From Pseudooceanicola antarcticus (GTDB lineage: Bacteria; Pseudomonadota; Alphaproteobacteria; Rhodobacterales; Rhodobacteraceae), in contig NZ_OBEA01000005.1 of the NCBI RefSeq assembly GCF_900215355.1, positions 62,001 through 126,000 on the forward strand: DNA of 64,000 bases, read 5' to 3'. A program made the translations under genes and the position numbers. Shown here piece after piece: positions 8,729-35,807 of the stretch. The notes under the pieces are model-generated. The model had not been told where the DNA came from. It did not search any database and saw only the letters and a list, made by a program, of their open reading frames with translations. Positions within the stretch are counted from its first letter, which is position 1; each line of letters starts with the position of its first letter.

Positions 8729-9134
8729 GCGCAACAGGAGGGGTGCCACCCTCCCCGCGAAGACCGGAGGTCTGCCAGGGGCGCAGGAGGGGTGCGAACC
8801 CACCTGCCCCGCGCCTAATGGCGCGGAACACCGTGTTAACGCATGGCGGCCACCGACATCCGCACCGACGTGATACCGACACAATACCGACGTGATACCG
8901 ACGTTGCGTTCGGTGCCCTTTCCGGGGCGTTAACTATTGCGGGGAGCATCTCGGGGGCCAGCCCCCAATGGGGCCTGCGGCTCCGGTCACCGCCGGCATG
9001 GTCTCGAACAGGGAAAGCGGGGCAACTGGGCGGCACCTGCCATCAGGCGGGCGGCCAGCAGCCGCGACCGCGCGCAAAAACATCCAGCGAAACCAAAAGG
9101 TTACGCTGCGATCTTTGACACTTCTGGGGGAAAG
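8729..9134. other. intergenic with short repeats
   Basis: No credible gene. It contains a small hairpin (GGAGGG/CCCTCC, 8737-8754), two copies of CAGGAGGGGTGC (near 8735 and 8785), and an 11-bp tandem repeat (8864-8907). Confidence 0.5.
8864..8907. repeat. four tandem 11-bp repeats
   Basis: Four consecutive units read ACCGACGTGAT, ACCGACACAAT, ACCGACGTGAT and ACCGACGTTGC. A looser ACCGACATCCGC copy lies directly upstream, starting at 8852. The 11-base period is about one helical turn. No coding function is apparent. Confidence 0.75.
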
Positions 9135-9211
9135 TGGCGCGGTTGACGGGGCTCGAACCCGCGACCTCCGGCGTGACAGGCCGGCACTCTAACCAACTGA
9201 GCTACAACCGC
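9135..9211 (-). tRNA. tRNA-Asp (GUC), copy 1
   Basis: A 77-base cloverleaf including an encoded CCA end. The acceptor is GCGGTTG/CAACCGC with discriminator G. The D arm reads AGCTCAGTTGGTTAGAGT, the anticodon loop CTGTCAC gives GUC, and the T arm has GGTTCGAGCC. It is identical to the copy 217 bases upstream on the same strand. Confidence 0.97.
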
Positions 9212-9313
9212 GCGTAGGGGCTGGAATAATGTGGCTGCCCGGTGGGGTCAATGGGAAAATGCAGCTTCTCTTGCGTCAATTTTCAGATTGCCCAAACGCT
9301 TGATCCCAAAAGC

Positions 9314-9341
9314 AAAAAGCGCCCCTGAAGGGACGCTTTTC
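9314..9341 (-). terminator. hairpin between the two tRNA-Asp genes
   Basis: The stem AAAAGCG/CGCTTTT has an inner CCC/GGG, and on the minus strand it ends in a run of T. It lies just 3' of the upstream tRNA-Asp copy and probably terminates that transcript or marks a processing site. Confidence 0.65.
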
Positions 9342-9351
9342 TGAACGGTGA

Positions 9352-9428
9352 TGGCGCGGTTGACGGGGCTCGAACCCGCGACCTCCGGCGTGACAGGCCG
9401 GCACTCTAACCAACTGAGCTACAACCGC
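9352..9428 (-). tRNA. tRNA-Asp (GUC), copy 2
   Basis: A 77-base gene with encoded CCA, the same sequence as the copy at 9135-9211 and on the same strand. The two are separated by 140 bases containing a terminator-like hairpin, so each may be transcribed alone. Confidence 0.97.
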
Positions 9429-9647
9429 TCTCTCACCGTGGAGGGCGTTCTATGCGGAGTACCGCAGAGCGTCAAGAAGGAAAATCCAGAGCCGGGAAAT
9501 TATTGCGCAACACCCTGATGAATAAAGACTTTATGCCAACATTTCTTCACAGGCGCCCTCCGGCGGTCAGCGCCCCCGCCCTGCCACGCCAACACAAGCG
9601 CCCAAGAGCCCCACCCCCGCCGTGGTACAGGCCAGAGCCACCTTCCC

Positions 9648-10142
9648 TCAGACCTCCAGAGCGTGAAAGCGACGCGCGAACCACGCAGTGACCGGAGCAT
9701 CTTCCTGCTGCCGGATGCCGACGATTTCTCCAAAGATGACCTCATGGGTCCCCACCACATGGCGGTGCGAGACCTGGCAATCGAAAGAGGCCACGGCCCC
9801 CTCAAGCACCGGCGCGCCGGTCACGTTACGATACCATGCGGCCCGCTCGAAGCGCTCGGCCATGGGGGTGCCAGCGCCGAAGGTCATGGCCAGCTCCTCA
9901 TGGGCGGGACCGACCGTGTTGACGCAAAAATAGTCGTTCTCCAGGAAGGCCGGCGCGGCGGAAGAGCCGGTATTGATGCAGACCAGCAGCGTGGGCGGGC
10001 TGTCGGTGACCGAGCAGACCGCAGAGGCGGTCAGCCCCGCCCGTCCGCCGGGCCCGTCGGTGGTGACGATATTCACCGCCCCCGCGAGGCAGGCCATGCC
10101 ATCGCGGAAATCAGCTTTGCTTACATGCGGATAGCTCATCAT
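9648..10142 (-). CDS. flavin reductase family protein (split-barrel FMN-binding)
   Basis: A 164-residue protein of the HpaC/RutF-like family that reduces FMN or FAD with NAD(P)H for a partner monooxygenase. Family features are GAVNIVTTDGPGGRAGLTASAVCSV near the N terminus (first motif split here: GAVNIVTTD, GLTASAVCSV), an NTG..SAPAFLEN stretch and a late HVVGTHEVIFGEI. The start is at the first of two adjacent ATGs, with GGAGAGGG upstream; the frame extends further but is unlike the family. No monooxygenase partner is adjacent, so the partner is elsewhere or the enzyme serves a general role. Confidence 0.85.
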   Translation of the reverse strand: MMSYPHVSKADFRDGMACLAGAVNIVTTDGPGGRAGLTASAVCSVTDSPPTLLVCINTGSSAAPAFLENDYFCVNTVGPAHEELAMTFGAGTPMAERFERAAWYRNVTGAPVLEGAVASFDCQVSHRHVVGTHEVIFGEIVGIRQQEDAPVTAWFARRFHALEV

Positions 10143-10389
10143 CTCGTCCCTCTCCCTGTCGCCTTGCCGCGACACCGGCAGAATCGCTGTGTTCAACTTG
10201 ACCGGCGGATCGCCCCTGCTGTCCAGCCCCAAGCGCGGCCAGGCCCCGCGCCCTCTCGGACCACCAGCTAGCCCGTACCGCAACGGTGGCCAGCCTCAGC
10301 CCTGCGCCAGGGGACCGCCGGGTGCAAGACTTCCCTTCCCCCGGCCGGGTTGCTATCGCTGACGGGCTCAAGAACCCGAGGACCCCGCC

Positions 10390-11244
10390 ATGCCCCTGCC
10401 CGACCTCCTGCGCGTGGTGCTGCTCGTCTTCTCTGCGGTCAGCTTCGTGGTCCTTGGCGACACCGCCGGCAAGCTGATGACCAGCGCCGGCGTCGCCCCC
10501 TTCTTCGTCGCCTGGTCGCGCTTCGCCCTCGCCGCCGTCATGCTGTTGCCCTTCAGCGGCCTCACCCGCGCCGAGCTGCCCGCCCTGCTGTCCTGGCGCG
10601 TCCTGCTGCGGGCCGGCTTCATCGCAGCGGGAATCTCCTGCATCCTGACCGCGCTCAGGACCGAGCCCCTGGCCAATGTCTTCGGCGCCTTCTTCATCGG
10701 CCCCGTCGTCTCCTACGTGCTGGCGGTGGTATTCCTGGGCGAGCGGGTGACGGCACGGCGCAGCCTGTTGCTGGGGCTGGGGCTTCTAGGCGTGATGCTG
10801 GTGGTGAAACCGGGGTTCGGCTTCACCGCCGGGATGGGCTTCGCCCTGACCGCCGGCTGTTTCTACGGCAGCTACCTGGTGATGACCCGCACCGTGGCCG
10901 CGGACCACCGCCCCCGGTTCCTGCTGATGTCGCAGCTGCTGATCGGCACGGTGCTGCTGGCTCCGCTGGGCCTCTCGGTCGACCTACCCGCCCCCAGCCT
11001 GAGCCTTGCCCTGCTGGTGGCCATCAGCGCCGCGGGCTCGGGCGTGGGGAACTACCTGCTGGTCATCGCCCACCGGAAGGCCGAGGCCAGCCTGATCGCG
11101 CCGCTGGTCTACAGCCAGCTGATCTCGGCCACGCTTCTGGGAGGGCTGGTCTTCGGAGATTGGCCGGACCTCTGGTCGCTGGCCGGGCTGCTGCTGATCG
11201 CCACCTCCGGCCTGGGCTCGCTGCTGGCCAATCGCACCCGCTAG
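10390..11244 (+). CDS. DMT-superfamily transporter (EamA family)
   Basis: A 284-residue inner-membrane protein with about ten hydrophobic segments arranged as two EamA repeats of five. Examples are LLRVVLLVFSAVSFVVLGDT at the N terminus and GVMLVV around residue 137. Family members usually export amino acids or other metabolites; the substrate is unknown. It begins with GAGG upstream of the ATG and stands alone on the plus strand, divergent from the flavin reductase. Confidence 0.9.
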   Translation: MPLPDLLRVVLLVFSAVSFVVLGDTAGKLMTSAGVAPFFVAWSRFALAAVMLLPFSGLTRAELPALLSWRVLLRAGFIAAGISCILTALRTEPLANVFGAFFIGPVVSYVLAVVFLGERVTARRSLLLGLGLLGVMLVVKPGFGFTAGMGFALTAGCFYGSYLVMTRTVAADHRPRFLLMSQLLIGTVLLAPLGLSVDLPAPSLSLALLVAISAAGSGVGNYLLVIAHRKAEASLIAPLVYSQLISATLLGGLVFGDWPDLWSLAGLLLIATSGLGSLLANRTR

Positions 11245-11355
11245 ATCGCCCCGACCCGCGAGGCCCTAACCGGACGCCGGACGCCGACCTTGGTATCGGA
11301 TCGGCGCAATTGCCTTGACCCATGTCCCTGCGCCTTCATTCTGGCCTTCACGGCC

Positions 11356-11820
11356 ATGAACAAGATACGCCACATGGAGCTGAGCAAAGAAAAACTGGCG
11401 GCTGTCCTTGCCTTCATCACCGAGCTGGAGACCTTGGCGCCTCCGGACCGTGACTGGGTGTTGGAACGGCGGCAGGCCCCCAAACCCGATTGGAAGACCC
11501 TGGACCTGCCCGCTATCGACCGTCTCTACCGGACCTTCTGGCTGGCGCAGACCGGCACGGCCCGGCGCGCCTACACGCAACGCTTCGGCGACTCCTACCT
11601 GCAAGAGGTTGCCAGGGACCTCTCGATGATCCTCGACTATTGCCGCCACGTGCTGGCCGATCAGCGCCAGCATGGCACCTGGCCCCGCCCCGATGCCTGC
11701 CGCCTGCTGACCAGCCACCTGGTCCAGGCCAACCGTTTCGACCTCGCGCGAAGGGTCGAGCTGGGCTTCCATCGACAGGCTGTGCGAAGCGATATAAGGA
11801 AGGAGCGCGCTCTACCATAG
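11356..11820 (+). CDS. hypothetical protein, about 154 residues
   Basis: A mostly helical, soluble protein with charged motifs such as ELSKEKLAAVLAFITELETL and RRAYTQRFGDSYLQEVARDL. There is no signal peptide or membrane segment. Starts at 11356 (MNKIRHMELS) or 11374 (MELSKEK) are both possible and neither has a clear ribosome-binding site. Third-position GC is high, as in neighbouring genes, up to about residue 140; the last residues (RKERALP) run into a decayed region. The C terminus may therefore be altered. No family recognised. Confidence 0.5.
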   Translation: MNKIRHMELSKEKLAAVLAFITELETLAPPDRDWVLERRQAPKPDWKTLDLPAIDRLYRTFWLAQTGTARRAYTQRFGDSYLQEVARDLSMILDYCRHVLADQRQHGTWPRPDACRLLTSHLVQANRFDLARRVELGFHRQAVRSDIRKERALP

Positions 11821-12267
11821 GTAGAGTCCCCGGCCAGCCCGTGACGCCTGCCCGTGCTGCAAAAGCAATCGGGAATCGCCGCGTTGCAGCACTGCAAACA
11901 CGGGTTTTCCTATCGTTTCCATACACATGACACAAAATAGACGTTCCCGAAGAGAGAAAGCCCTCCTACACTGTAAAGGCGAACGGGCAGCAATGCGACG
12001 CACGTTCCAAGTGTGTAGACGGATTGAACGGCTGGTATGTCCGGGTTGTCCCTCCCCGGACTGCGCGTCCCCACAGACCGCTTTCCGGGTTCACGAGTAT
12101 CGCGTCGCATCCATGGCTCCCCGCCGCCCGTTCGCGCTCCGGCCTGCCCGTTTCGAGGCAAGGCACCCCGGAACCCAATCCCTGGTGCCGGTCCCCGCCT
12201 CGACATTCCTCCAGGGCAGGCTGGACCACCCCTTCTCTCCATCAGAACACGCAGATCCTTGCCCATA

Positions 12268-12404
12268 GACAAGCGCCGGAACCGGATCGAGATCATGTTT
12301 GGCAGGCTCAAGGCCGGCGCGGTGTCGCAAGTAGATACGACAGGAGCCCGCAGGCCTTCCTTTCGGAAATCGCATTTGAAGCGCTCGTCATCGACTGGTT
12401 GTGA
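12268..12404 (+). pseudogene. IS5-family transposase C-terminal remnant
   Basis: One frame reads DKRRNRIEIMFGRLK and, after a shift of one frame near 12310, another reads GVASRYDRSPQAFLSEIAF followed by EALVIDWL and a stop. Together they match the conserved C-terminal end of IS5-type DDE transposases (RRNRIE..FGRLKDWRRVATRYDR). Only the last 45 or so residues survive, and they need a frameshift. No terminal inverted repeats could be paired with it. Confidence 0.75.
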
Positions 12405-12549
12405 AGCTCAAATAGGCCAGACCCCAGGATGTCCTACCGTCACTCCAAAGAGTTCAAGCCTTATCCGACGGGTCTCAGTCTCATGCTGAGCGTCACAGGT
12501 TGACGCCGTCGAAAGCTTCCTCCCCATGATCTGCGCGACGGCACCTCTC

Positions 12550-12597
12550 TGCTAATCTTGGCGCTGCGCATCATGGTCTCCTTGCCTAAAGATTAGC
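12550..12597. repeat. inverted repeat, 10-bp arms
   Basis: TGCTAATCTT on the left and AAGATTAGCA on the right are separated by about 30 bases. They lie between the transposase remnant and the GntR gene stop. It could be a terminator for the minus-strand GntR gene or a relic of a mobile element end. Confidence 0.45.
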
Positions 12598-12634
12598 AAG
12601 GAAAGCGCCCGCGTTGCGCGGGCTGCTCAAGCCA

Positions 12635-13318
12635 TCAGACTGCCTTGTCATCCAACAGAAGCTGACGGGCGATCAGCTTCGCCTCATGCAAGTGCTCGGT
12701 CACCGCCGCCAGCGCAGCGTCGGGATCGCGATTGGTAATCGCCGTGCAGATCGCCAACATATGCGCGGGCCCCGGAAGCTCCCGATTGTCACTGGTCAGG
12801 GTCAGGATACGCAGACGAGAGATGCGGCCGTTCAGTCTCTGCACGATTTCCCATGCAATATTATGGCGGGCGCCCTCGAAGATCAGCGCATAGAAGCGCG
12901 TTGCGGCCTTGAATAGCGCGCCCGGCGCCTGGTCGTTCCCGGCGCTCTGCAGATCGGCTAGGGCCGCTTTCAGCCGCCGTTCCAGATCCGGCGTCATGTT
13001 ACGTGCGCAAGCCATGGCGGCATCCGTCTCAAGCTTCAGACGGATGTCATAGATCTGCTGCGCGTCCTCCCAGCTCATCTCGGCGACCATCGGCCCGCGG
13101 TTCGGGACATGGGTCACCAGGCCTTCGGCATCGAGGTAGCGCAATGTCTCGCGCACCACCGTACGAGAGACGCCCAGTTGCTCGCACAGCACTCGCTCAA
13201 CCAGGCGGTCTCCCGGCTTGAAGACCCCACCAATGATGGCGTCCCGGAGCCTCTCCAGGACGACATCGCGCAGCGTCGTCGGCTGCTGCTCAATTCTGCT
13301 TAGCCCAATATCTGACAT
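12635..13318 (-). CDS. GntR-family regulator, FadR (FCD) type
   Basis: A 227-residue transcription factor. It has an N-terminal winged helix (about residues 12-75, with FKPGDRLVERVLCEQLGVSR) and a helical FCD effector domain (about 85-215) with the aspartate/histidine-type metal or acid site expected of this subfamily. It is divergent from the DUF1185 operon with 106 bases between and most likely represses it until a small carboxylate or related ligand binds. The ATG at 13318 gives MSDIGLS; a GTG two codons earlier has better spacing from GAGG and cannot be excluded. Confidence 0.9.
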   Translation of the reverse strand: MSDIGLSRIEQQPTTLRDVVLERLRDAIIGGVFKPGDRLVERVLCEQLGVSRTVVRETLRYLDAEGLVTHVPNRGPMVAEMSWEDAQQIYDIRLKLETDAAMACARNMTPDLERRLKAALADLQSAGNDQAPGALFKAATRFYALIFEGARHNIAWEIVQRLNGRISRLRILTLTSDNRELPGPAHMLAICTAITNRDPDAALAAVTEHLHEAKLIARQLLLDDKAV

Positions 13319-13348
13319 GCGCACTGGATATCAGCCTCTGCCGCGCCC

Positions 13349-13374
13349 AACAAGATTGTTTGTACGATTGTATT
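13349..13374. promoter_or_regulatory. candidate GntR operator, direct repeat
   Basis: In the divergent gap the sequence GATTGTTTGTAC is followed directly by GATTGTATTAC, two near-copies 12 bases apart, and the second includes the dyad GTA-T-TAC. FadR-type regulators commonly bind TNGTNNNACNA-like dyads. Position between the regulator and its presumed target operon supports an operator, but the exact half-sites are uncertain. Confidence 0.4.
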
Positions 13375-13424
13375 ACGGTATTCCATCCTACAGACAGACG
13401 ATTCGTCACGGACTGGAGACCTGA

Positions 13425-14027
13425 ATGCCTGCTGAAATCCGAAAGACCCTGCTGCATGTCGAAACGACATGGATCGAAGGCGGAAAGGCCGCGCCCGTGC
13501 CCCTGAAGATGATCGCCGCCGTGGCGGTGATCCGGAATCCCTGGGCTGGTCAGGGTTTTGTGGAAGATCTGCGGCCTGCCATTCTCGATGCTGCGCCCGG
13601 CCTTGGCGCATTGCTGACGGAGATGGTTCTTGAAGCCGCCGGGGGCGGCGACAAGGTGGAAGGCTACGGCAAGGCGGCCATCGTCGGCGTCAACGGCGAG
13701 GTCGAGCACGCCTCGGGCCTGATCCACACCCTGCGTTTCGGCAACCACTACCGCGAAGCGGTCGGGGCCAAGTCCTACCTGGCCTTCACCAACACCCGTG
13801 GCCCGGCCAATGCCTCGTTGCAGATCCCGCTGATGGACAAGAACGACGGCGGCCGGCGCAGCCACTACCTGACCATCCAGCTTTCAGTGGCGGATGCTCC
13901 CGGCCCCGACGAGATTGTCGTGGCCCTCGGCGCCTCCATCGGGGGCCGCCCGCATCACCGCATTGGCGACCGCTACCAGGATCTGAAGGAACTCGGGCAT
14001 GACCTTGAAAACCCTGCCTCTGTCTGA
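13425..14027 (+). CDS. DUF1185 (amino acid synthesis family) protein
   Basis: A 200-residue soluble protein matching the DUF1185 / 'amino acid synthesis' family. Typical segments are KMIAAVAVIRNPWAGQGFVEDL, split here as KMIAAVAVIRNPWAG and GFVEDLRP, then GYGKAAIVGVNGEVEHASGL and a C-terminal IGGRPHHRIGDRYQD. The biochemical role of the family is not established; members sit in catabolic gene clusters. It is the first gene of a seven-gene operon, with GGAG 6 bases before the ATG and a 29-base overlap with the next gene. Confidence 0.85.
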   Translation: MPAEIRKTLLHVETTWIEGGKAAPVPLKMIAAVAVIRNPWAGQGFVEDLRPAILDAAPGLGALLTEMVLEAAGGGDKVEGYGKAAIVGVNGEVEHASGLIHTLRFGNHYREAVGAKSYLAFTNTRGPANASLQIPLMDKNDGGRRSHYLTIQLSVADAPGPDEIVVALGASIGGRPHHRIGDRYQDLKELGHDLENPASV

Positions 14028-25520: not shown

Positions 25521-26759
25521 TCAGGCGGTGGCCAGCGCCAGCCCGTCGACGATGGCGGTGAAGGCAGCCGAGCGGCGCAGGGTCGCGCCGGGACAGATCG
25601 CTTGCGCCTCTTCCTGCACCAGCGCCATCAGGCTCGAGCCCCCGACCAGGATCACCGAAGAGACCTGCTGCGGCATCACCCCGGCCTGCATCAGCGTGGC
25701 ATAGATCGCCCCCTTCAGCGCCTCGCGCGCCTCCGAGAGCGCGGCATTGACCGATCCGGAGGTGGTGCGCGCGCTCAACCCCTTCTCGATCGTGCCCATC
25801 TCGATCTGACCCGCCCCCGAGGCGGAATTCGCCCCGATCTTGCCGGCCTCGACCGCGAAGGCCAGCTCGTGGCCCAGCTGGTCCTCGATCACGGTGGCCA
25901 GACGCTCCATCGGGCGTTTCTCGACCGCATGGGCCAGCATGTCGGCCACGGCCCGCTGGGTCTCGCCGGAATAGAGGAAGGGGATCTTGGCCCAGGTCGA
26001 GAGCTCGACATAGAGGGGTTTCGGCACCGGCAGCAGGCCCTCGCCGAAGCTGCGGCGCAGCTCTCCGCCCAGGCCGAGCAGCGGCATGGCATGGGTCATC
26101 GAGACCGCGTGGTCGAAGTCGGTGCCACCCAGCCGGATGCCGTGGCTGCCCAGGATCTCGATGCCGTTGCCCCTGGCCTTGAAGAGGGTGAAATCCGAGG
26201 TACCGCCGCCGATGTCAACGATCAGGCCCATCTCACCCGGATGGCCGTCGCCGAGGCTGGCCAGCGCTGCCGCCTCGGGCTCGAACATGAAGCTGATCTC
26301 GGTAAAGCCCGCCGCCTCGTAGCAGCCGCGCAGGTCGGCCTCGGCGCGGGCGTCGCGCTCGGGATCGGCGGTGTGAAAATGGACGGGCCGTCCCGACAGC
26401 ACGGCGGTGTAACTCTGCCCGGTCTCGTCCTCGGCGCGCTTCTTCACCGCCAGGAGGAAATCGGTGACGATCTCGGCCAGGGTGCGGCGCTTGCCGCCGA
26501 CCAGGCGTTTTTCATGAAAGAGCCCGGTGCCCAGCACCGATTTCAGCGCCCGCATGTAGCGCCCCTCTTCGCCCTCGATCAGCGCCTCGGCGGCGGCGGA
26601 TCCGATCTGCATCGCGCCCCCGTCCGAGGGGAAGAAGACCGCCGTCGGCAGGGTCTCTTCGCCCGCCTCCACGGCGATGCGGCGCAGAGTTCCGCCCTCC
26701 AGAACGGCGGCGGCAGAGTTGGAAGTGCCGAAGTCGAGGGCAAGCACGGGACGGGTCAT
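25521..26759 (-). CDS. Hsp70-family protein, YegD-like
   Basis: A 412-residue protein with the actin-like ATPase domain of Hsp70 and no substrate-binding domain of usual length. Phosphate-binding loops are LALDFGTSNSAAAV at the N terminus, LIVDIGGGTSDFTLF in the middle and SSVILVGGSSLMALV near the C terminus. YegD-type proteins are putative chaperones of unknown client. It lies 70 bases after the CBS-domain gene on the same strand and may be the last gene of the nqr transcript. Confidence 0.9.
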   Translation of the reverse strand: MTRPVLALDFGTSNSAAAVLEGGTLRRIAVEAGEETLPTAVFFPSDGGAMQIGSAAAEALIEGEEGRYMRALKSVLGTGLFHEKRLVGGKRRTLAEIVTDFLLAVKKRAEDETGQSYTAVLSGRPVHFHTADPERDARAEADLRGCYEAAGFTEISFMFEPEAAALASLGDGHPGEMGLIVDIGGGTSDFTLFKARGNGIEILGSHGIRLGGTDFDHAVSMTHAMPLLGLGGELRRSFGEGLLPVPKPLYVELSTWAKIPFLYSGETQRAVADMLAHAVEKRPMERLATVIEDQLGHELAFAVEAGKIGANSASGAGQIEMGTIEKGLSARTTSGSVNAALSEAREALKGAIYATLMQAGVMPQQVSSVILVGGSSLMALVQEEAQAICPGATLRRSAAFTAIVDGLALATA

Positions 26760-26829: not shown

Positions 26830-27225
26830 CTAGCCCATGTCCAGCAGCGCCGAAAGCACGTCCGAGCGCCGCAGCATGCCGACGAGCTGCCCGGCCTCGA
26901 GCACCGGGAAGATACGATGCGGATGGGCCATGAAGGCCTCGGCGGCGGTGATCAGGTCGTCGTCCGCCTGCAGGCAGACCGGATCGGGGGTCATGCTGTC
27001 GGCAACGACGCCCTTCCATTCCTGGTAGTAGCTGGCCTGCAAGGCCGGGCGGAAGCAGTCCTTCTGGCTGAGCAGCCCCACCAACTGGCCAGAGCTGTCC
27101 ACCACCGGCGCAGCGGCGGCTCGGGCCTCGGCCAGGCGCGCGGCGGCACGGCGCATCGGGGTTTCGGGTGCCAGCTGCACGTAGTCCTTCAGCATGATCA
27201 GGCGCACGCGGGCCTCGGTGCTCAT
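26830..27225 (-). CDS. CBS-domain protein (two CBS motifs)
   Basis: A 131-residue protein made almost entirely of a CBS pair (about residues 15-60 and 80-128; SGQLVGLLSQKDCFRPAL and AGQLVGMLRRSDVLSALL). Such pairs bind adenine nucleotides and regulate attached or partner proteins. The ATG overlaps the NqrM stop as ATGA, so it is translated with the Nqr set and may sense ATP/AMP or NAD(H) for it. This role is inference. Confidence 0.88.
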   Translation of the reverse strand: MSTEARVRLIMLKDYVQLAPETPMRRAAARLAEARAAAAPVVDSSGQLVGLLSQKDCFRPALQASYYQEWKGVVADSMTPDPVCLQADDDLITAAEAFMAHPHRIFPVLEAGQLVGMLRRSDVLSALLDMG

Positions 27226-27392
27226 GGCGTCTCCTCCGGCTTGCGGTTCGGGCAGAAGTCGCAGGCGGCCCCCTTGATGCAGGAGGCCCCGCCGCAGGAG
27301 GTCTGTACCGGGCCGCGACCGAAGACCAGGCCAAGGGCCAGACCGCCAGCGGCCAGCAGGAAGATCCCGAGGGTCAGAAGAAACTCCATCAT
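27222..27392 (-). CDS. nqrM: NqrM, Na+-NQR maturation protein
   Basis: A 56-residue membrane protein with one transmembrane segment (EFLLTLGIFLLAAGGLALGLVFG) followed by SCGG, CIKG and CDFC cysteines (hydrophobic segment described in two parts: FLLTLGIFLLAAGG and LALGLVFG). This is the pattern of NqrM (DUF539), needed in Vibrio for iron delivery to the NqrD/NqrE [2Fe-2S] site. GGGGAGG precedes two consecutive ATGs; either could be used. It lies between apbE and the CBS gene in the operon. Confidence 0.9.
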   Translation of the reverse strand: MMEFLLTLGIFLLAAGGLALGLVFGRGPVQTSCGGASCIKGAACDFCPNRKPEETP

Positions 27393-27402
27393 CGCCCCTC
27401 CC

Positions 27403-28371
27403 CTAGAGCAGGGCGCGGGCGAAATCACCCGTCGCCTCTTGGCGCAGTTCCGCGTCGGCGGCGGAAAGGAAAAGCGCATCCAGCCCCGCCTGTCGGGCCA
27501 GTTCCGGCCCCTGCGCCCCGGCGGCGAAAAGCGCCGTCGCCCAGCCATCGGCCTGCATGGCCGTCCCCGACTGGACGGTGACCGAAAGCAGGGACCCGCT
27601 GACCGGCTCTGCCGTCGCGGGATCGATGATGTGCCCGTAGCGGCGGCCATCCAGCGCATAGCTCTGCACCGCGATGCCGGAGGTCGCCACCGCGCCCTCG
27701 AGCCCGATCACGCCACGCAGGCCAGAGGCCCCCGGACGCGGGTCCTCGATCGCCACCTGCCAGGGGCGGCCCGAGGGGTGAAGCCCATGGCCCCGCAGCT
27801 CTCCGCCCAGGTCGATCAGCAGGTCGGGTTCGTGCTGCAACAGCTGCTCGGCCATCAGGTCCAGCGCATAGCCCTTTGCGATGCCGCAGAGATCCAGCGT
27901 GACGCCTGGATGGGCGCGGCTGAGGTGGCCATTGTCCAGTGCCAGCGCGCGCCAGTCGGGCGCGGCGCCTTCGGTGATCGGGCCGAAGCCCCAGCGGGCG
28001 ACCAGGGGCCCGACGCTGGGGTCGAAATGCCCGCCGCTGTCGCGCGCCAGATCCAGCGCGGCAGTAGTGACGTTTGCCATGTGGGAGGGCAGTTCCAGCG
28101 CCGGGGCCTGGCCCCGGTTGAAGCCGCTCAGCACCGTATCCGCGCGCCAGGGCGACATCTGCCTGTCGACCTCCGACAGGATCGCCTCGAGCGCGCGCCG
28201 GTATCTCTCTGCGCCCCGCCCCGCCGGCAACGTCACGGACCAGCCGGTGCCGAAGGCCACCCCGCGCAGCGCCTCGGTCGGCGCCGAGGCGCGCAGCACG
28301 CCGGGGGTGGCCAGCGCCAGGGCAGCGCCCAGCACCGCGCGGCGTGTCGGTCGGGTCAAGGAATTTGCCAT
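27403..28371 (-). CDS. apbE: FAD:protein FMN transferase
   Basis: A 322-residue periplasmic enzyme of the ApbE family that links FMN to threonine in NqrC (and normally NqrB). An export signal with RRAVLGAALALATPGVL (Tat-like) is at the N terminus. Family features are MSPWRADTVLSGFNRG, VTLDLCGIAKGYALD and a C-terminal TGTAMQADGWATALF-like stretch (here SGTAMQADGWATALFAAG). It follows nqrF after three bases, as in many nqr operons. Confidence 0.93.
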   Translation of the reverse strand: MANSLTRPTRRAVLGAALALATPGVLRASAPTEALRGVAFGTGWSVTLPAGRGAERYRRALEAILSEVDRQMSPWRADTVLSGFNRGQAPALELPSHMANVTTAALDLARDSGGHFDPSVGPLVARWGFGPITEGAAPDWRALALDNGHLSRAHPGVTLDLCGIAKGYALDLMAEQLLQHEPDLLIDLGGELRGHGLHPSGRPWQVAIEDPRPGASGLRGVIGLEGAVATSGIAVQSYALDGRRYGHIIDPATAEPVSGSLLSVTVQSGTAMQADGWATALFAAGAQGPELARQAGLDALFLSAADAELRQEATGDFARALL

Positions 28372-28374
28372 GGT

Positions 28375-29607
28375 TCAGACTCCGAAATCATCGTTGAAGA
28401 TATGGTCGGGCTCGACGCCCAGCCGTTCCAGCGTCGCCAGCACCGCCGAGATCATCACCGGCGGGCCGCAAAGGTAGTACTCGCAATCCTCTGGCGCGGG
28501 GTGGTCGCGCATCGCCTGCCGCACCGTATCATGGATGAAGCCCGTGGCCCCGGTCCAGCGGTCCCCCGGCGCCGGGTCCGAGAGCGCCGGCACCCAGGAG
28601 AAACTCTCGTGCTGCGCGGCGATGGCATCGAACTCCTCGACGTAGAAGAGATCGGCCACGGAGCGCGCGCCGTAGAAGTAGCGCATCCTGCGCCCGGTCC
28701 CGAGGGCGGCCTGCTCGTGGATCATCGCCCGCATCGGTGCCATGCCGACACCGCCGCCGATGAAGACCATTTCGGCCTGCGTGTCCTGCACGTGGATCTC
28801 GCCGAAGGGACCCGAGGCCTGCACCTCGTCCCCCGGCTGGCGCGCGAAGAGCCAGGACGAGACGACACCGGGCGGGATTTCTTCCTCGTGCCCGGCGGGG
28901 GGCACGGCAAGGCGGATGTTGAAGACCACCCGGCCCGCGGCGGTATCCTCGGGGCGCGAGGCGATGGAATAGGCGCGGGTGACGGCTGTGGCCGAGCTCA
29001 TCCGCAGGCGGTCCCAGCGGGCCTCATGCCAGGTGGCGCGGAAGCCCTGCTCCACCGGCATGGTCGAGAAATCCAGCCTGTAGGCTGGCGCGGTCAGCTG
29101 CATGAAGCCGCCGGCGCGGAAGTCGAAGGGCTGGCCCTCGGGCAGCTCGAGCACCAGCTCGCGGATCAGCGGCGCCATCATGCGGTTCGAGACCACCTTG
29201 CAGGTAAAGCCGCCCGAGGCCTCGAGGAAGGCGTCGGGCACCGTGACCTCGCAGGGCCCGCGCAGGGCGGTCTGGCAGGCCAGACGCTTGCCCGCCTTGC
29301 GCTCTGCCGCAGAGAGCACGCCGCGTTCGGTGGCACCGGCCTCGCCCGCGCCCTCGCCATGCACCTCGACCCGGCAGAGCCCGCAGGTGCCAGAGCCGCC
29401 ACAGGCCGCCGGAATGCCGATGCCCGCCCCGTGCAGCACCCCAAGAAGGCGGTCGCTGCGTGTCGCCTCGATCTGGCGCGAGCCGTTAACCGTGACGGTC
29501 AGCGTCGACTTCGGCACCAGCCGCGCCCGCGCCAGCAACAGGCCGATGGTCAGGCCCAGGATCAGCAGGACCACCACGAGGCTTGAGATGAGGATCTCTT
29601 CGGTCAT
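28375..29607 (-). CDS. nqrF: Na+-translocating NADH:quinone reductase subunit F
   Basis: A 410-residue entry subunit that oxidises NADH. One N-terminal transmembrane helix is followed by a [2Fe-2S] ferredoxin domain (PAACGGSGTCGLCRVEV, with a further cysteine in RLACQ), an FAD domain (RAYSIAS) and an NADH-binding domain (GGGVGMAPMRA). Length matches the family (about 407). The start is set by the overlap with the nqrE stop (ATGA). Confidence 0.96.
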   Translation of the reverse strand: MTEEILISSLVVVLLILGLTIGLLLARARLVPKSTLTVTVNGSRQIEATRSDRLLGVLHGAGIGIPAACGGSGTCGLCRVEVHGEGAGEAGATERGVLSAAERKAGKRLACQTALRGPCEVTVPDAFLEASGGFTCKVVSNRMMAPLIRELVLELPEGQPFDFRAGGFMQLTAPAYRLDFSTMPVEQGFRATWHEARWDRLRMSSATAVTRAYSIASRPEDTAAGRVVFNIRLAVPPAGHEEEIPPGVVSSWLFARQPGDEVQASGPFGEIHVQDTQAEMVFIGGGVGMAPMRAMIHEQAALGTGRRMRYFYGARSVADLFYVEEFDAIAAQHESFSWVPALSDPAPGDRWTGATGFIHDTVRQAMRDHPAPEDCEYYLCGPPVMISAVLATLERLGVEPDHIFNDDFGV

Positions 29608-30212
29608 TGCGCAGCCATCTGGGCGAAAGAGGAAAAGCCGAGCGACATCAGCCCGGCCAGGATGAAGGTGATGCCCAGCCCGCGCAGCCCGGCGGGCAGA
29701 TCCGCATAGGCCAGCCGCGCCCGGATGGCCGAGAGCATGGTGACGGCCAGGGCAAAGCCCGTACCTCCGCCTAGCCCGAAGACCAGGCCCTCGGTCAGCG
29801 TGTAGCTGCGCTCGACCATGAAGAGGCTGCCCGCCAGGATCGCGCATTGCACGGTCAGCAGCGGCAGGAAGACCCCGAAAGCCGCGTGAACGCCAGGCAG
29901 GAACCGGTCGAGCAGCATTTCCAGCAGCTGGACCACGGCGGCGATGACGCCGATGAAGGCGAGAAGCGCCAGATAGGACAGGTCGATCTCGGGGTAGCCC
30001 GCCCAGGCCAGGGCACCGGGGGCCAGAAGCGCGCTGTAGACAAGCTGGTTCAGCGGCACCGTGACGCCCATGACGGCGATCATGGCGATACCCAGCCCGA
30101 CCGCCGTCTCGGGTCGTTTCGACAGCGCCAGGAAGGTGCAGAGACCCAGGAACAGGGTCAGGGGCAGGTTCTCGACGAAGGCCGCCGAGAGGAAGAGATC
30201 CCAGAGGCTCAT
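29604..30212 (-). CDS. nqrE: Na+-NQR subunit E
   Basis: A 202-residue integral membrane subunit with six transmembrane helices. It keeps the two cysteines expected to co-ordinate the intramembrane [2Fe-2S] cluster with NqrD (FLGLCTFLAL and TVQCAILAGS). Length is normal. The ATG overlaps the nqrD stop as ATGA. Confidence 0.95.
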   Translation of the reverse strand: MSLWDLFLSAAFVENLPLTLFLGLCTFLALSKRPETAVGLGIAMIAVMGVTVPLNQLVYSALLAPGALAWAGYPEIDLSYLALLAFIGVIAAVVQLLEMLLDRFLPGVHAAFGVFLPLLTVQCAILAGSLFMVERSYTLTEGLVFGLGGGTGFALAVTMLSAIRARLAYADLPAGLRGLGITFILAGLMSLGFSSFAQMAAQ

Positions 30213-30874
30213 TCCATCCCCTCCGGGATCTGCGGCGCGGCGAACTCGGGCGGCTCGGCCTGTTCGGGCCGGACCGTCCGGATGGCCCAGACCAGCCCGC
30301 CCAGCAGGAAGAAGGCCGAGGGCGCCAGCATCATCAGCGCAAGGGGCGTGAACCAGCCGCCCTGCTCGGCCAGCGGCAGCACCTGGTAGCCCAATAGGGT
30401 GCCTGCGCCGAACAGCTCCCGTACCGCGCCGATGGCAATCAGGACCAGCGAATAGCCAAGGCCGTTGCCAAGCGCGTCGATCATCGAGGGCAGCGGCGGG
30501 TTGTGGCGGGCGAAGCTTTCGGTGCGGCCCAACACCAGGCAATTGGTGGTGATCAGGCTGACGAAGACCGAAAGGCTCTGGCTGATCTCGAAGAGATAGG
30601 CCTGCAGAAGCTGGTCGATGACAATGACCAGCGAAGCCACGATGACGATCTGCACGATCAGCCGGATGGCATCGGGGATATGGCGGCGGATCAGGCTGAT
30701 GATCCCCGCCGAGAGCGCCAGCACGATGGTCAGCGACCCCGCCATGGTCAGCGCCGTCGGCAGCTGCGTCGTCACCGCCAGGGCCGAGCAGATGCCGAGG
30801 ATCTGCAGCGTCACCGGGTTCTGCCGGATCAGCGGCTGGGTCAGCGTGCTCCAGAGGGGGGATGGCGCGGTCAT
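30209..30874 (-). CDS. nqrD: Na+-NQR subunit D
   Basis: A 221-residue membrane subunit, homologous to NqrE, with six helices. The cluster cysteines are in ILGICSALAV and TTNCLVLGR. It has a slightly extended polar C terminus (EFAAPQIPEGME). It lies three bases after nqrC. Confidence 0.95.
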   Translation of the reverse strand: MTAPSPLWSTLTQPLIRQNPVTLQILGICSALAVTTQLPTALTMAGSLTIVLALSAGIISLIRRHIPDAIRLIVQIVIVASLVIVIDQLLQAYLFEISQSLSVFVSLITTNCLVLGRTESFARHNPPLPSMIDALGNGLGYSLVLIAIGAVRELFGAGTLLGYQVLPLAEQGGWFTPLALMMLAPSAFFLLGGLVWAIRTVRPEQAEPPEFAAPQIPEGME

Positions 30875-30877
30875 GGC

Positions 30878-31675
30878 CTAGAACTCTCCCCGCCGTACCG
30901 CCTCGATCAGCGGCCCGTAGCCCTGCGGCCCCAGCCAGAAGCGGATGATCCGGGTCATGGCGGAAGAGGTGCGCGTGGCGCCGGTGATGCCGTCGACCTC
31001 GTATTCGGTGCCGGCCTGGCCCTTGGCGACGGCAAAGCGCAGATCGCCGCGCGCGTCCCTTGTCTTCACCCCGCTGAAGGAGGCCAGCCAGGCGGGCTCT
31101 TCGATCCGCGCCCCAAGGCCGGGGGTCTCGGACTGGCCGGTGATGGCAAGGCCCGCGATGGTATGCATGTCGCCGGTCAGCGCGAGGATGGCGTCGATGC
31201 GCCCGTTGTAGCCCGCCCCCGAGATCGGCAGGAGCATGAGAGAGATCTCCTCTCCGTTCCTGAGCAGGAAGATCTGGGCGTAATCGGGACGGGAGCCGAG
31301 GCCCGCCAGGTCCTCTCCGGCAGAGAGGGCGGTCCAGTTGGCCATGTCGGCCAAGGCGGCCTCTAGCGTTTCGGGCGTGACCTCGGTGGCCGCGCGGGCC
31401 TTGGTCAGATCGACCACCACGGTCGACAGCGTGCCGCCGGTTTCGGCCATCAGCTGGGTCATGCCCGGCACGCCCGCGACAAGCGCCTCGATGCGGGCCT
31501 GTTGCTCTGCGGCGCGGTTAGCGGCCTGGATCGGGCGCAGGATCACCGTCGCACCGCTGACCAACACCGCGCAGAAGGCCGAGACCAGGAAGGCCATCAC
31601 CACCGTCTTGGTACGGCTCTCGTTGGGCAGGGCCAGCAGCCGGCGCCAGGCCGAGAAGGGATTGAGGTCAGCCAA
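30878..31675 (-). CDS. nqrC: Na+-NQR subunit C
   Basis: A 265-residue subunit with one N-terminal transmembrane helix and a periplasmic FMN-binding domain. The covalent flavin site is kept as DGITGATRTSS near residue 234, a variant of the SGATxT motif modified by ApbE. No ATG fits: the TTG at 31673-31675, seven bases after GGAGG, gives LADLNPFSAW and is the best start. It overlaps the nqrB stop by eight bases. Confidence 0.92.
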   Translation of the reverse strand: MADLNPFSAWRRLLALPNESRTKTVVMAFLVSAFCAVLVSGATVILRPIQAANRAAEQQARIEALVAGVPGMTQLMAETGGTLSTVVVDLTKARAATEVTPETLEAALADMANWTALSAGEDLAGLGSRPDYAQIFLLRNGEEISLMLLPISGAGYNGRIDAILALTGDMHTIAGLAITGQSETPGLGARIEEPAWLASFSGVKTRDARGDLRFAVAKGQAGTEYEVDGITGATRTSSAMTRIIRFWLGPQGYGPLIEAVRRGEF

Positions 31676-32459
31676 GGTGTTTCCTCCGTCTTGCGCGCCA
31701 GAGCGAGATCGCCGCCTCGTCCAGCATCGGCGCGGCGAGCGAGGCAAAGAGCGCCGCCGAGACCGCGATCTGCGCCGGGGCCGCGCCCTGCCAGCCGGTG
31801 GCGAATAGCACCACCAGCCCGCCGTAGAGCAGCCCGTAGAGCCAGCGGCCCGGTAGGGTCGAGGCGCTGGTGACAGGATCGCAGACCAGGAGCACCAGCA
31901 CGATGAAGGCCATGGGCAGCACCGGGGCGAGGCCCGCGGGCCAGGTGCCCTGCCCCACGCCCCAGCTCACCAGCGCCGCCAGAAGCGCGCCGCCGATCAC
32001 CCGTCCCGGCATCAGGCCCAGGGTGACGCCGAGAACCGCGGCGGGGATCGCCGCCCAGGCCAGGGGCAGTACCAGCTCTGGCCAGGGGGCGGCAGGGAAG
32101 CCGAAGCCCAGGAAGGCCAGTGTGGCGGTGGCGGGGTTGATCACGTTGCGGCCCCAGCCTCCGAAGACCAGTTCGGCCATGACCGATCCGAAGGAGATGC
32201 CCAGGATGAGCCGCGCCAGCCCCAGCTCTTCCGGCGCCAGCATGGCCACGGCGAGCGCGGTGATGGCACCGGCGAAACTGGGCGGCTGTGCGCGCGCCAG
32301 CATGAAGACCAGGTGCCAGGCACCCGAGATCACCAGCGCCAGCGCCAGTCGGGTCCAGGCCTCGGGTCCACCGAACCAGAGCCAGACCAGTGCCAGGGGC
32401 ATCAGGCAGATGAGCAGCAGAAGCGCCACGGTCTCGCGGTCCCAGAGTCCCCGGATCAT
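31668..32459 (-). CDS. nqrB: Na+-NQR subunit B, short variant without flavin loop
   Basis: A 263-residue membrane subunit, where NqrB is usually about 400 residues. The conserved core is present: ILGISFGSVMAELVFGGWGR (residues 85-104), NVINPATATLAFLGFGFPA, GRVIGGALLA, VCDPVTSASTLPGRWLYG and APMLDE. The soluble N-terminal region is missing. The segment between FPA (121-123) and GRVIGG, which in Vibrio carries the covalent FMN threonine (SGAT), is replaced by a short helix. This is a deletion in an otherwise intact frame, so a functional variant is more likely than decay. Confidence 0.9.
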   Translation of the reverse strand: MIRGLWDRETVALLLLICLMPLALVWLWFGGPEAWTRLALALVISGAWHLVFMLARAQPPSFAGAITALAVAMLAPEELGLARLILGISFGSVMAELVFGGWGRNVINPATATLAFLGFGFPAAPWPELVLPLAWAAIPAAVLGVTLGLMPGRVIGGALLAALVSWGVGQGTWPAGLAPVLPMAFIVLVLLVCDPVTSASTLPGRWLYGLLYGGLVVLFATGWQGAAPAQIAVSAALFASLAAPMLDEAAISLWRARRRKHLG

Positions 32460-33733
32460 AGGCCCTCCTCCGCCGCGATGCGGTCGAGCGCGGCGCGCAG
32501 CAGGGCCGAGAGACGCGGCGTCGCGCCGGTGACGTAATCGGCCAGGGCCAGGTCCTCTTCCAGCAGCGACAGGCCACCGAGGCGGGTGAAGCTCTCGTCA
32601 TCGCCCGAGGACAGCGCCCGGATCAGCGCCATGGCGGGCAGCGCCGTGCCGAAGGCCTGTTCGAGCGCCGCAGTCGGGATCACCGGCAGCGGGCGGGCGG
32701 CGCGGCGCAGCGCATTGCTGAACCAATGGCTGCGCGGGCTGCCGCGGTGACTGTCCTGCACCGTGACCTGCCGGTCGCGCAGGCCCAGCCAGGTTGCCTC
32801 GTGCCCGTCCAGAGCCGAGCCCGAAAGCACCTGGTGCCAGCCCGGCACCACCGCCCCCTGGCAGAGCCCGCGCAGGTTGGCGCCCGGCTGGCAGCGCAGA
32901 AGGCGCGTCTCGGTCAGGGCCTCGCCGGTGACAGAGACGCTGCGCAGCCCCGGCAGGCTGCCGGTCTCAAGCAGCGCACCCAGATCGGCGACATCCTCGG
33001 CGTGAAGCTCCCAGACCGGGGCCTCGGGCGTGGCGGGGTGTTCGTGATGGATGCGGAAGCCGGCCAGGCCCTGCGGATGCCGGTTGCCGCACCGCAGGAT
33101 CCGCAGGCGCCCCTCGACCGCCCCCGGCCCCGCCAGCGCGGGACCGCGCGGCTGGCAAAGGAAGACAGGCCCCCCGGTCAACCGTCCGAGCGCCGCGAGC
33201 CCCCGGCTGAAGGACTCGCCCCGCCCCTCGAGCATCGCCACCGGATCCGGGGCATGGGGGCGGGTATCTGCGGCCATGACGAAGATCGCGGCGGGGCTCT
33301 CGGCGACGGCGGGCATGCGGCCGAAGGGCCGGCTGCGCAGGAGCCGCCAGAGCCCCGCCTGCTGCATCAGCACACGAATGGCCGCCGCATCGCCGTGGCG
33401 CGCGGCGGCCACCTCGAAGACATGGCGCCCGGCCTCGGGCTCATGGAAGAAGAGCAGTTCGATCAGCTGCCGCCCCGGTCCCAGGCGGACCCGCGCCAGC
33501 CGTGCGGCCATGGGGGCCACCAATGCAACCTCTGGATGATCTCGCATCCGGGCCACCGGGGCGCCCTGGGCCAGCAGCGCGCCCTCTTCGCAAAGCATGT
33601 CGAGCCGCAGACGCTCGGAGCGCAGGGGAATCAGCGCGGCCTCTTCGGTCAGCCGCGCGGTCACGCCACCCGAAGCAGGCGGCGCGGTCGGCAGTGCTGG
33701 ACTCAACCCCGAATTAATGGCGCGCAACGGCAT
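32456..33733 (-). CDS. nqrA: Na+-NQR subunit A, divergent
   Basis: A 425-residue cytoplasmic subunit opening the operon. It follows NqrA along its length (GALLAQGAPVARMRDHPEV, FGRMPAV, AADTRPHAPDP, PGLRSVSVTGEAL, QVLSGSALDG, ending in a domain before EEGL) but is slightly shorter and poorly conserved compared with the usual 446 residues. It binds quinone in studied enzymes. The ATG has GGGGA upstream and lies 112 bases from the divergent cytochrome gene. Confidence 0.9.
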   Translation of the reverse strand: MPLRAINSGLSPALPTAPPASGGVTARLTEEAALIPLRSERLRLDMLCEEGALLAQGAPVARMRDHPEVALVAPMAARLARVRLGPGRQLIELLFFHEPEAGRHVFEVAAARHGDAAAIRVLMQQAGLWRLLRSRPFGRMPAVAESPAAIFVMAADTRPHAPDPVAMLEGRGESFSRGLAALGRLTGGPVFLCQPRGPALAGPGAVEGRLRILRCGNRHPQGLAGFRIHHEHPATPEAPVWELHAEDVADLGALLETGSLPGLRSVSVTGEALTETRLLRCQPGANLRGLCQGAVVPGWHQVLSGSALDGHEATWLGLRDRQVTVQDSHRGSPRSHWFSNALRRAARPLPVIPTAALEQAFGTALPAMALIRALSSGDDESFTRLGGLSLLEEDLALADYVTGATPRLSALLRAALDRIAAEEGL

Positions 33734-33845: not shown

Positions 33846-35006
33846 ATGCGTCGGATAATTGTTGCCACATCTCGCCTCCTGTTCACGGTTTGCGCCCTGA
33901 TGCTGCCGCTTGCGACGGCCTCTCACGCCCAGGAGACCGAGGCACCGCTGACCCCCTTCGTGCTGCCCGATGCCGGGCCCTTCCTGCCCAAGGACCTGGG
34001 CCCCGAGAACAACGAGGCCATCGCCGCCTGGATCGGCTCGGCCCATGCGGACAATGCCTCCGAGGCCTTCACCCACTGGGACGAGGACGGAGAGATCCGG
34101 CCCAATTGCTCGGTCTGCCACTCGGGCGCCGGGTTCCGGTCGTTCCACGGGCTGGATGGCTCTGCCCCCGGCCTGCCGGAAAGCCCCATCCCCACGGGCG
34201 GCGTCGTCGATTGCGCCACCTGCCACGCGCCAGGCATCGCCGAGGTCAAGGCGATCACCCTGCCCTCGGGCGTCGAACATCCCGTCCAGGGGGTCGAGGC
34301 CGCCTGCATGACCTGCCACCAGGGCCGCAGCGCCGGGATCAACGTCGAAGAGGCCACCGCCGGGGCCGAGGTCGACGTGGTCAATGCCGAACTCCGCTTC
34401 ATCAACCCGCATTACAAGACCGCCGCAGCCACCTGGCTGGGCGGCTATGGCAAGGCGGGCTATCACTATGAAGGCAAAAGCTATTCCGGTCGCTTCTTCC
34501 ATGCCCGCCCGGTGGCGACCTGCGTCTCGTGCCATGATCCGCACGGGCTGGAGGTCAAGGTCGAGAGCTGCGCCACCTGCCATGACACCGAAAACCCGCA
34601 GGCGATCCGCATCCGCAAGCAAAGCTACGACGGTTCGGGCAACCTGACCCAGGGCATCCGCACCGACATCGCCAACAATGCCGCGCTGCTGCTGAGCACG
34701 CTGCAGGATTACAGCGCGAAGGTCGCCGGCGTGCCCATTCTCTACGACGCCCACAGCTACCCCTACTTCTTCACCGACGCCAATGGCGACGGGGTGGTCG
34801 ACACCGGGGACGATGGCCGCTCCGTCTCCTATGCCAGCTGGACGCCGCGCATGCTTCGGGCCGCCTACAACTGGAAGCTGGTCACCGCCGACCCCGGCAT
34901 CTACGCCCATAACCCGCACTACGCGCTGGAGCTCCTCTACGACAGCATCGACGACCTGATGGTGGGCCTTGGCGGCGACACGGCGAGCCTTGGCATCCTG
35001 CGCTGA
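33846..35006 (+). CDS. periplasmic multihaem (five-haem) cytochrome c
   Basis: A 386-residue exported protein with a signal peptide ending near ASHAQ (residue 27). It has five CxxCH haem sites: CSVCH, CATCH, CMTCH, CVSCH and CATCH. The last two are spaced as a doubled-CxxCH unit (CVSCHDPHG ... SCATCH). The C-terminal third lacks haem sites and is rich in tyrosine and asparagine. It is divergent from nqrA and shares its promoter gap. It may carry electrons to a periplasmic reductase; no reductase motif is recognised. The frame extends upstream, but the ATG at 33846 precedes the signal peptide. Confidence 0.88.
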   Translation: MRRIIVATSRLLFTVCALMLPLATASHAQETEAPLTPFVLPDAGPFLPKDLGPENNEAIAAWIGSAHADNASEAFTHWDEDGEIRPNCSVCHSGAGFRSFHGLDGSAPGLPESPIPTGGVVDCATCHAPGIAEVKAITLPSGVEHPVQGVEAACMTCHQGRSAGINVEEATAGAEVDVVNAELRFINPHYKTAAATWLGGYGKAGYHYEGKSYSGRFFHARPVATCVSCHDPHGLEVKVESCATCHDTENPQAIRIRKQSYDGSGNLTQGIRTDIANNAALLLSTLQDYSAKVAGVPILYDAHSYPYFFTDANGDGVVDTGDDGRSVSYASWTPRMLRAAYNWKLVTADPGIYAHNPHYALELLYDSIDDLMVGLGGDTASLGILR

Positions 35007-35070: not shown

Positions 35071-35477
35071 GAATTAAAAGAGATATCTCAAGCTCATTAT
35101 TGAATGACCTCGATGCGCCCTGAAATTGCGCATTAAGATATCCCGCTAATTTACCTTAATGCATTCCAGCCGCTTTTCGCCGATGCTCCGCCGGGGCAGA
35201 AGTCCTTCCCGCAAGGGGCGAAAGGAAACACCTTGCCCGAAGACCCCGAGGCCGGCTCGTCACAACCTAAGGCTGTTTTCAGTGACGACCTTTTCCAGAT
35301 GGGCAGGCGGACGCGGGGTACCCGGTCTGCTCGCCGCGTGCGCCTGCGATATGGCGCCAACCGCCCGCGGCATCAACGCAACATAAAGTTGTGCAAAGGG
35401 CCCCAGCTACTTGACAGAACAACGGCATGAGGATCCTTTGCTTCTAGTACTTTGGTCTAACGAGTGAGATGGGTATC
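35071..35477. other. intergenic, AT-richer
   Basis: About 400 bases with no credible gene. The left third is AT-rich. TTGACA at about 35413 may be the -35 box of the promoter of the small exported protein downstream. Confidence 0.45.
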
Positions 35478-35807
35478 ATGAAGAAACTTGCGAGCAGCAC
35501 CGCGCTGGCCACGATCCTGTTGTCCGGCGCAGCACATGCTGACCCGGCTGTCATGCTCGGGCTTGCCCTGAACTTCGGCGGCGCCGCCGACACCAAGCTC
35601 GGCCTCACCACCAAGCTGCTGTCTGACAACCGCCCCGATCAGCTGGTTGGCGCCATTGGCGGCACCTACTTCTTCGATGGGACCTGGGGCCTCGACGTGG
35701 GCATCGGCTATACCTTCGACGAAGCGGCCGTAACCCTCAGCTATGACTTCATCAACAACGCTCCGCAGGTCGCGGCAGGCTGGGCCAATATCGAAACGGT
35801 CTGCTGA
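35478..35807 (+). CDS. small exported beta-rich protein
   Basis: A 109-residue protein with a signal peptide (MKKLASSTALATILLSGAAHA). The mature part of about 88 residues is rich in alternating hydrophobic and polar residues with GAIGGTYFFDGTWGLDVGIG and VTLSYDF, and it ends in a cysteine. This suggests a short outer-membrane or secreted beta-strand protein. A start at 35469 (MGIMKK) is possible. I do not recognise a family. Confidence 0.7.
   Translation: MKKLASSTALATILLSGAAHADPAVMLGLALNFGGAADTKLGLTTKLLSDNRPDQLVGAIGGTYFFDGTWGLDVGIGYTFDEAAVTLSYDFINNAPQVAAGWANIETVC

Follow-up and report, generated by a model that had tools for sequence, protein, structure and literature searches.

An NQR-type gene cluster of Pseudooceanicola antarcticus with a shortened NqrB and a divergent pentaheme cytochrome

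The window (the whole stretch of Pseudooceanicola antarcticus DNA that was analyzed, 64,000 nucleotides) contains nqrA to nqrF in one gene cluster, as in Na+-NQR. The minus-strand gene order is nqrA-B-C-D-E-F, then apbE, an NqrM-like gene and a CBS-domain gene, and the plus strand carries a cytochrome gene, named here cyt5, whose start lies 112 bases away from that of nqrA (Table 1). The ATG start of nqrB and the nqrA stop overlap by 4 bases. For comparison, 182 relatives were confirmed in a scan of named genomes and the best 80 were retained, referred to below as the ‘named loci’.

Table 1. Positions and main characters of the genes at the locus, numbered along the window.
Feature	Positions	Strand	Remarks
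Hsp70-like gene	25521-26759	-	after the CBS gene; presumably Hsp70-like, named from its N-terminus
CBS-domain protein gene	26830-27225	-	present in 76/80 named loci (best 80 of 182 relatives)
NqrM-like gene	27222-27389	-	small membrane protein, 55 aa, cysteine-rich
apbE flavin transferase	27403-28371	-	sole apbE found in the genome
nqrF	28375-29607	-	410 aa; ferredoxin, FAD and NAD-binding domains
nqrE	29604-30212	-	202 aa; two of two cluster cysteines kept
nqrD	30209-30874	-	221 aa; two of two cluster cysteines kept
nqrC	30878-31675	-	265 aa; TTG start; TGAT flavinylation motif kept; Vibrio Leu145-Trp146 replaced by Tyr-Asn
nqrB, short form	31668-32459	-	263 aa; ATG start; without the FMN loop and the N-terminal quinone-site helices
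nqrA	32456-33733	-	425 aa; shortened segment (25 residues vs 48), which in Vibrio clamps the N-terminus of NqrB
cyt5	33846-35006	+	pentaheme c-type cytochrome, 386 residues; signal-like N-terminus; divergent from nqrA
Small ORF	35469-35807	+	112 residues, downstream of cyt5; signal-like N-terminus

NqrD, NqrE and NqrF reached the NCBIfam equivalog cut-offs, and NqrA, NqrB and NqrC remained below theirs; NqrB scored 67.2 bits against TIGR01937 (cut-off 349.9), short of the equivalog score. No second NqrB/RnfD gene and no second ApbE was found in the genome (97.41% complete), which has one gene for each. The complex I subunit family PF00146 was also present, so the NQR variant need not be the sole NADH dehydrogenase of this genome. 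The NqrM-like label is one we take from position and motif; a family search with the longer frame of that gene gave no family match. Only 3 of the 80 named loci (best 80 of 182 relatives) had a homolog of the Hsp70-like gene close to the cluster, and the 112-residue ORF had no homolog in the 35 loci searched. The cyt5-nqrA intergenic region was screened for a shared regulator site; an FNR-like pattern occurred in 2/89 loci, each of four further patterns in one locus or none, and no 8-mer in more than 9/89.

The nqrB gene is an intact open reading frame. In the profile search of the genome, the PF03116 match of its product fell into two pieces (profile positions 6-137 and 199-289 of 296), so that about 60 profile columns, corresponding to the FMN-loop region, are missing. 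Residue 39 was paired with V. cholerae NqrB 134 in the alignment, and the SGAT segment with Thr236 was missing from it, as a sequence-only reading of this DNA had claimed. Three blocks are absent compared with canonical NqrB: roughly 46 residues at the N-terminus, some 40 from between the first two core helices, and the 44 that hold SGAT; the short loop preceding the DPV motif is also reduced. That reading had also described a conserved core, and this was borne out by an AlphaFold model built from 21 short relatives (pLDDT 93.8, pTM 0.91), which has the NqrB/RnfD fold. All 15 Foldseek matches at E ≤0.001 were NqrB or RnfD chains, and comparison with V. cholerae NqrB gave Z 25.7 and rmsd 2.6 over 258 residues (chain range 47-413).

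Both the N-terminal domain and the FMN loop had been reported missing, and both are gone, but the missing N-terminus is common to RnfD. Residues 9-123 of the short NqrB align to 11-130 of the RnfD profile, and RnfD is described as lacking the two N-terminal NqrB helices used by the ubiquinone site in V. cholerae (PMC12174285, in part; ‘in part’ here and below marks a source cited for a portion of its text). The loss of the FMN loop is thus the unusual part for the NqrB/RnfD superfamily. Two ways of recovering a complete protein were rejected. A frameshift or sequencing error was excluded because the short form without [ST]GAT recurs in 80/80 named loci (best 80 of 182). An alternative SGAT-type site was not present either, with no [ST]GAT in the protein or in the other five frames of the gene, where one chance SGAS was seen on the opposite strand.

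The survey of occurrence proposed in the same reading was run, and the short form was found in 22 of 149 family genomes and in the 80 named loci (best 80 of 182 relatives), the latter carrying mostly Rhodobacterales and some Rhizobiales names, with Pseudooceanicola marinus and Nitratireductor indicus among them. Only a canonical-length NqrB was present in 24 family genomes; two of the 22 short-form genomes (G099 and G125) held both forms. The short NqrB carried [ST]GAT in 0/80 named loci (best 80 of 182) and 0/22 family-sample loci, vs. 14/14 of the canonical loci examined in the family sample. These canonical controls were 12 loci from the 24 canonical-only genomes together with the canonical copies from G099 and G125; the other 12 canonical-only genomes were classed from open-frame length alone, and a locus cut by a contig end (L193) and an RNF-like locus (L194) were left out. 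The locus sets include damaged or cut members (L050, L079, L090, L094, L104 and L120), and the NqrC site of L120 was unreadable in one frame. Residue counts below refer to a ‘near’ group of 91, which counts the window once, and to groups in which the window was added as a reference row (‘far’, 11 rows for 10 far NqrB sequences; ‘canon’, 15 rows for 14).

In a tree of NqrC-D-E-F with 48 chosen rows, the short and canonical forms were separated with support 99 (quick method, SH-aLRT only; L184 forms a long branch of unsure placement, and letter make-up differs among many rows), for which one origin of the short form is the simplest reading. L184 (genome G264, 7864-13912) is a very diverged short-NqrB cluster without nqrA, in which the NqrB GRN and DPV motifs are lost and a tetraheme cytochrome gene lies near the cluster, not adjacent to it. 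G264 (99% complete) has kept nqrB-F, apbE and the CBS gene; no nqrA match was obtained in it at the E limit used. In Roseivivax sediminis, two separate short clusters with Cyt5 were located on one contig (L085 and L100). Short nqrB was also found on large plasmid records (H1-H4) of Nitratireductor, Paracoccus, Pseudooceanicola and Shinella, which suggests that the cluster may move between lineages; the short subunit is labelled generically as RnfABCDGE subunit D in 4/4 full-length plasmid matches.

In V. cholerae, the ubiquinone site uses the two N-terminal NqrB helices (PMC12174285, in part) and NqrB Gly140/141 (PMC4014512, in part), residues 330-379 of NqrA are interwoven with the N-terminus of NqrB, and Leu145-Trp146 of NqrC touch the NqrC FMN (both PMC9325719, in part). 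The variant has neither the quinone site so defined, with the helices missing and Gly140 kept in 0/91 near and none of the 10 far sequences (Gly141 in 53/91 near), nor the covalent FMN site (SGAT Thr) of NqrB. The NqrA clamp segment measured 14-27 residues in 8 short-form sequences vs. 41-49 in 6 canonical ones. The NqrC position of Leu145 was Tyr in 88/91 near sequences and that of Trp146 was Gly, Asn or Gln in 83/91; canonical NqrC rows had Leu and Trp in 18/19. The losses in NqrB and NqrA are thus coordinated and together take away the electron-return branch, which is well supported, and the earlier suggestion of a ‘simplified or re-wired pump’ is well supported to the extent that this branch was lost from the two subunits together.

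The input branch is intact. The sequence-only reading had named an NqrC TGAT site and ApbE, and both were found. The flavinylated Thr of NqrC was kept in 86/91 sequences (2 gaps, 2 Ser), the NqrD cluster cysteines C29 and C112 in 88/89 and 89/89, and the NqrE cluster cysteines in 89/89; this Thr and the four NqrD/E cysteines, all characters of Na+-NQR, are present in the window. In three named loci (L068, the nearest relative of the window, L088 and L093) no apbE was seen in the locus stretch examined and the rest of the cluster was present; the NqrC motif of these loci is TGAT in L068 and L088, and TGAS in L093.

The neighboring pentaheme cytochrome was not taken up in the sequence-only reading. 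Cyt5 is divergent beside nqrA in 78/80 named loci (best 80 of 182), always with five CXXCH, and in the two loci without it the contig edge falls in nqrA. Beside canonical nqr it was found in 0/21 loci (14 of the family sample and 7 further). Among the 22 short loci of the family sample, Cyt5 was intact in 18, broken in one (L050) and missing from three (L046, L047 and L048). These three are basal in the family sample, and NqrB may therefore have lost its FMN before the complex gained its present partner. Adjoining nqrA and divergent from it, L046 carries a tetraheme cytochrome gene, then a fragment resembling a flavocytochrome c FAD domain; in L048 a divergent gene encodes an EB_dh-family protein with a single CXXCH; no c-type cytochrome gene was found in the 18 kb of L047.

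An alignment of 28 Cyt5 proteins showed all five CXXCH and five further histidines (H67, H189, H219, H233 and H355) to be invariant, enough for a putative bis-His ligation of five hemes. The Cyt5 model (pLDDT 86.3; five models range down to 68.1) resembled NrfA (Z 12.0, rmsd 5.2, 250 residues) and OcwA (Z 11.7, rmsd 3.5, 216 residues) at Z ~12, the two being tied. Cyt5 differs from both in that all five hemes are CXXCH, with no CXXCK-type heme seen, that it scored 17.8 bits against NCBIfam NrfA, far below the cut-off of 595, and that its model gave no Foldseek match at E ≤0.001. The Pfam family Cytochrom_C552 was matched at 26.8 bits (cut-off 24.1), over a partial profile only. A plain NrfA was not the conclusion drawn for Cyt5 from these comparisons, and a variant active site is conceivable.

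Cyt5 was found in 28/149 family genomes, comprising the 18 with a short NqrB and an intact Cyt5, G013 with the broken gene, G012 with a weak match on another contig, and 8 genomes without a short NqrB. With a second copy in G047, nine Cyt5 loci lie outside nqr. In 6/9 (L157-L162), the Cyt5 homolog is divergent from a single-chain membrane protein that resembles NAD(P)H ferric reductases and has an NqrF-like reductase part, and the pair makes up a second, simpler two-gene device; each of the three partners that were domain-tested contained Ferric_reduct, FAD_binding_8 and NAD_binding_1. The other three loci (L156, L163 and L164) had no short NqrB and no reductase-like partner nearby.

Compared with the V. 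cholerae-type Na+-NQR, the window has the same six genes in the same order, the NqrC Thr, the NqrD/E cysteines, the NqrF domains and ApbE. It differs in an NqrB without the covalent-FMN loop and quinone helices, an NqrA without the clamp, changed FMN contacts in NqrC, and the added divergent pentaheme cytochrome. RNF (RnfABCDGE) is similar in that RnfD is also without the NqrB N-terminal helices, and that of Methanosarcina acetivorans in having an extra multiheme cytochrome partner, but RnfD is listed with a covalent FMN (PMC12174285, in part), which is missing from the window NqrB. The window genes scored as NqrA and NqrF, not as RnfB or RnfC, and no family of the latter two, which carry [4Fe-4S] clusters in RNF, was among the matches. 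The Nqr/Rnf-like two-subunit complexes share a membrane subunit without the flavinylated Thr, as in the short NqrB, and a one-way flow from NAD(P)H to the periplasm has been proposed for them; unlike the window, with six subunits including NqrD/E and an unfused NqrB, they have NqrB/RnfD fused to an NAD-binding domain (PMC8238504 and PMC11334425, both in part). The window NqrB ends after PF03116, and NAD_binding_1 sits in NqrF. By gene content the system is an NQR variant that fails in NqrB flavinylation and in the quinone site; it would work more like the proposed one-way complexes, yet is not one of them. Among the matches listed from the open-license literature, no described case of a six-gene NQR variant with a multiheme cytochrome was noticed.

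By these comparisons, a relative of Na+-NQR without the quinone-return parts probably exports NADH electrons from the cell interior. The reading we favor, and consider somewhat probable, is that of a derived NQR with six subunits and one-way electron flow, from NADH through NqrF, NqrD/E and NqrC-FMN to Cyt5, and not back through NqrB to ubiquinone. NADH would reduce the FAD of NqrF and then its 2Fe2S cluster, electrons would cross the membrane through the NqrD/E 2Fe2S cluster to the covalent FMN that ApbE is expected to attach to NqrC, and they would leave the complex from there to periplasmic Cyt5. The short NqrB, having lost electron entry (the FMN loop) and quinone exit, would act as a membrane scaffold, possibly still with riboflavin bound. 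The steps up to NqrC are modelled by homology on the NQR path (PMC10643135 and PMC9325719, both in part), and the step from NqrC to Cyt5 is suggested by gene linkage and by replacement of the partner device; a contact of NqrC with Cyt5, the way in which electrons run and what finally accepts them are inferences. The earlier proposal that electrons bypass FMN on the way from NqrC to NqrB was right about the usual FMN, which is missing, but the conserved divergent cytochrome suggests an exit at NqrC instead. The nqrB-F set without an nqrA match in G264, and the other divergent heme-motif genes of L046 and L048, which are without Cyt5, count in favor of the one-way path. Against it are the basal loci without Cyt5, of which L047 had no c-type cytochrome gene in its 18 kb, the Cyt5 homologs without a short NqrB in 8/149 genomes, the three of the nine loci outside nqr in which neither partner was seen, and the three loci without apbE nearby (L068, L088 and L093, among the best 80 of 182).

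An NADH:quinone reductase minus one flavin, in which NqrC-FMN would pass electrons to riboflavin in the short NqrB, with an altered quinone site and Cyt5 as an accessory, is an unlikely alternative that draws on the NqrB riboflavin contacts named in PMC10643135 (in part). These are mostly kept near the window (G198 in 91, N200 in 90, D346 in 89, A205 in 88, N203 in 76 and T162 in 71 of 91; F342 is Leu in 85/91), a surprising pattern for an NqrB through which no electrons passed; this counts against the one-way path and leaves room for electron transfer into NqrB. In Nqr/Rnf-like complexes, moreover, a covalent flavin may sample a non-covalent site (PMC11334425, in part). N200 is, however, kept in only 2/10 far sequences, the quinone helices and Gly140 are gone and the NqrA clamp is shortened, and the linkage to Cyt5 would be left unexplained.

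The same anatomy fixes no direction, and RNF is reversible among the NQR/RNF-type complexes (PMC12174285, in part). Cyt5 might thus gather periplasmic electrons with which NqrC, NqrD/E and NqrF would reduce NAD+, with membrane potential or Na+ as the driving force; we rate this as improbable. Proteins of the NAD(P)H ferric-reductase-like family, with which the Cyt5 homologs outside nqr pair, send electrons outward. Two unrelated NAD(P)H-to-periplasm devices thus stand in the same divergent position by the same kind of cytochrome, which is the best hint of direction. Decay or mis-assembly of the nqr locus, with no function left, could be argued from the gene-level losses and from L050 (genome G013), where cyt5 is visibly broken and nqrA has an in-frame stop, but is highly improbable, being already contradicted by the conserved length (the same short form in 80/80 named loci, best 80 of 182), the confident modelled fold of NqrB and selection on the genes (window vs. 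L068, nqrB dN 0.112, dS 0.425, dN/dS ~0.26; cyt5 dN/dS ~0.24).

How the one-way path would be coupled to sodium touches a debate in which the ion path is placed either in NqrB/RnfD or in the NqrD-E/RnfA-E pair (PMC12174285, in part). The NqrB Na+ site is described there as formed by backbone oxygens of A263, V275 and V332. Counted along the alignments, A263 falls in the deleted NqrB segment, so one of the three backbone ligands is lost; the NqrD/E pair, the rival path, is intact. Outward electron flow costs membrane potential unless cations accompany it, and Na+ coupling through NqrD/E would therefore make sense. NqrD/E would be the simplest route for any coupling that was kept. A natural half-NQR, that is an NADH:periplasmic cytochrome c oxidoreductase in which export via NqrD/E is still Na+-coupled and the NqrB output branch, with its FMN, its quinone site and a portion of the reported Na+ site, is gone, is put forward tentatively, as a doubtful but possible extension.

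A complex with the NqrF-DE-C input and without the NqrB electron branch separates the two coupling models, and a half-NQR could tell in which half of the pump sodium is moved. Should the half-complex pump Na+, the D/E path would be favored; should electrons flow with no pumping, the B path would be. If a half-NQR with Na+ coupling were true, it would represent a respiratory complex of a new class, with the Na+ path placed in NqrD/E. For marine Rhodobacterales and some Rhizobiales, the one-way complex would also be an additional means of exporting electrons from NADH to the periplasm.
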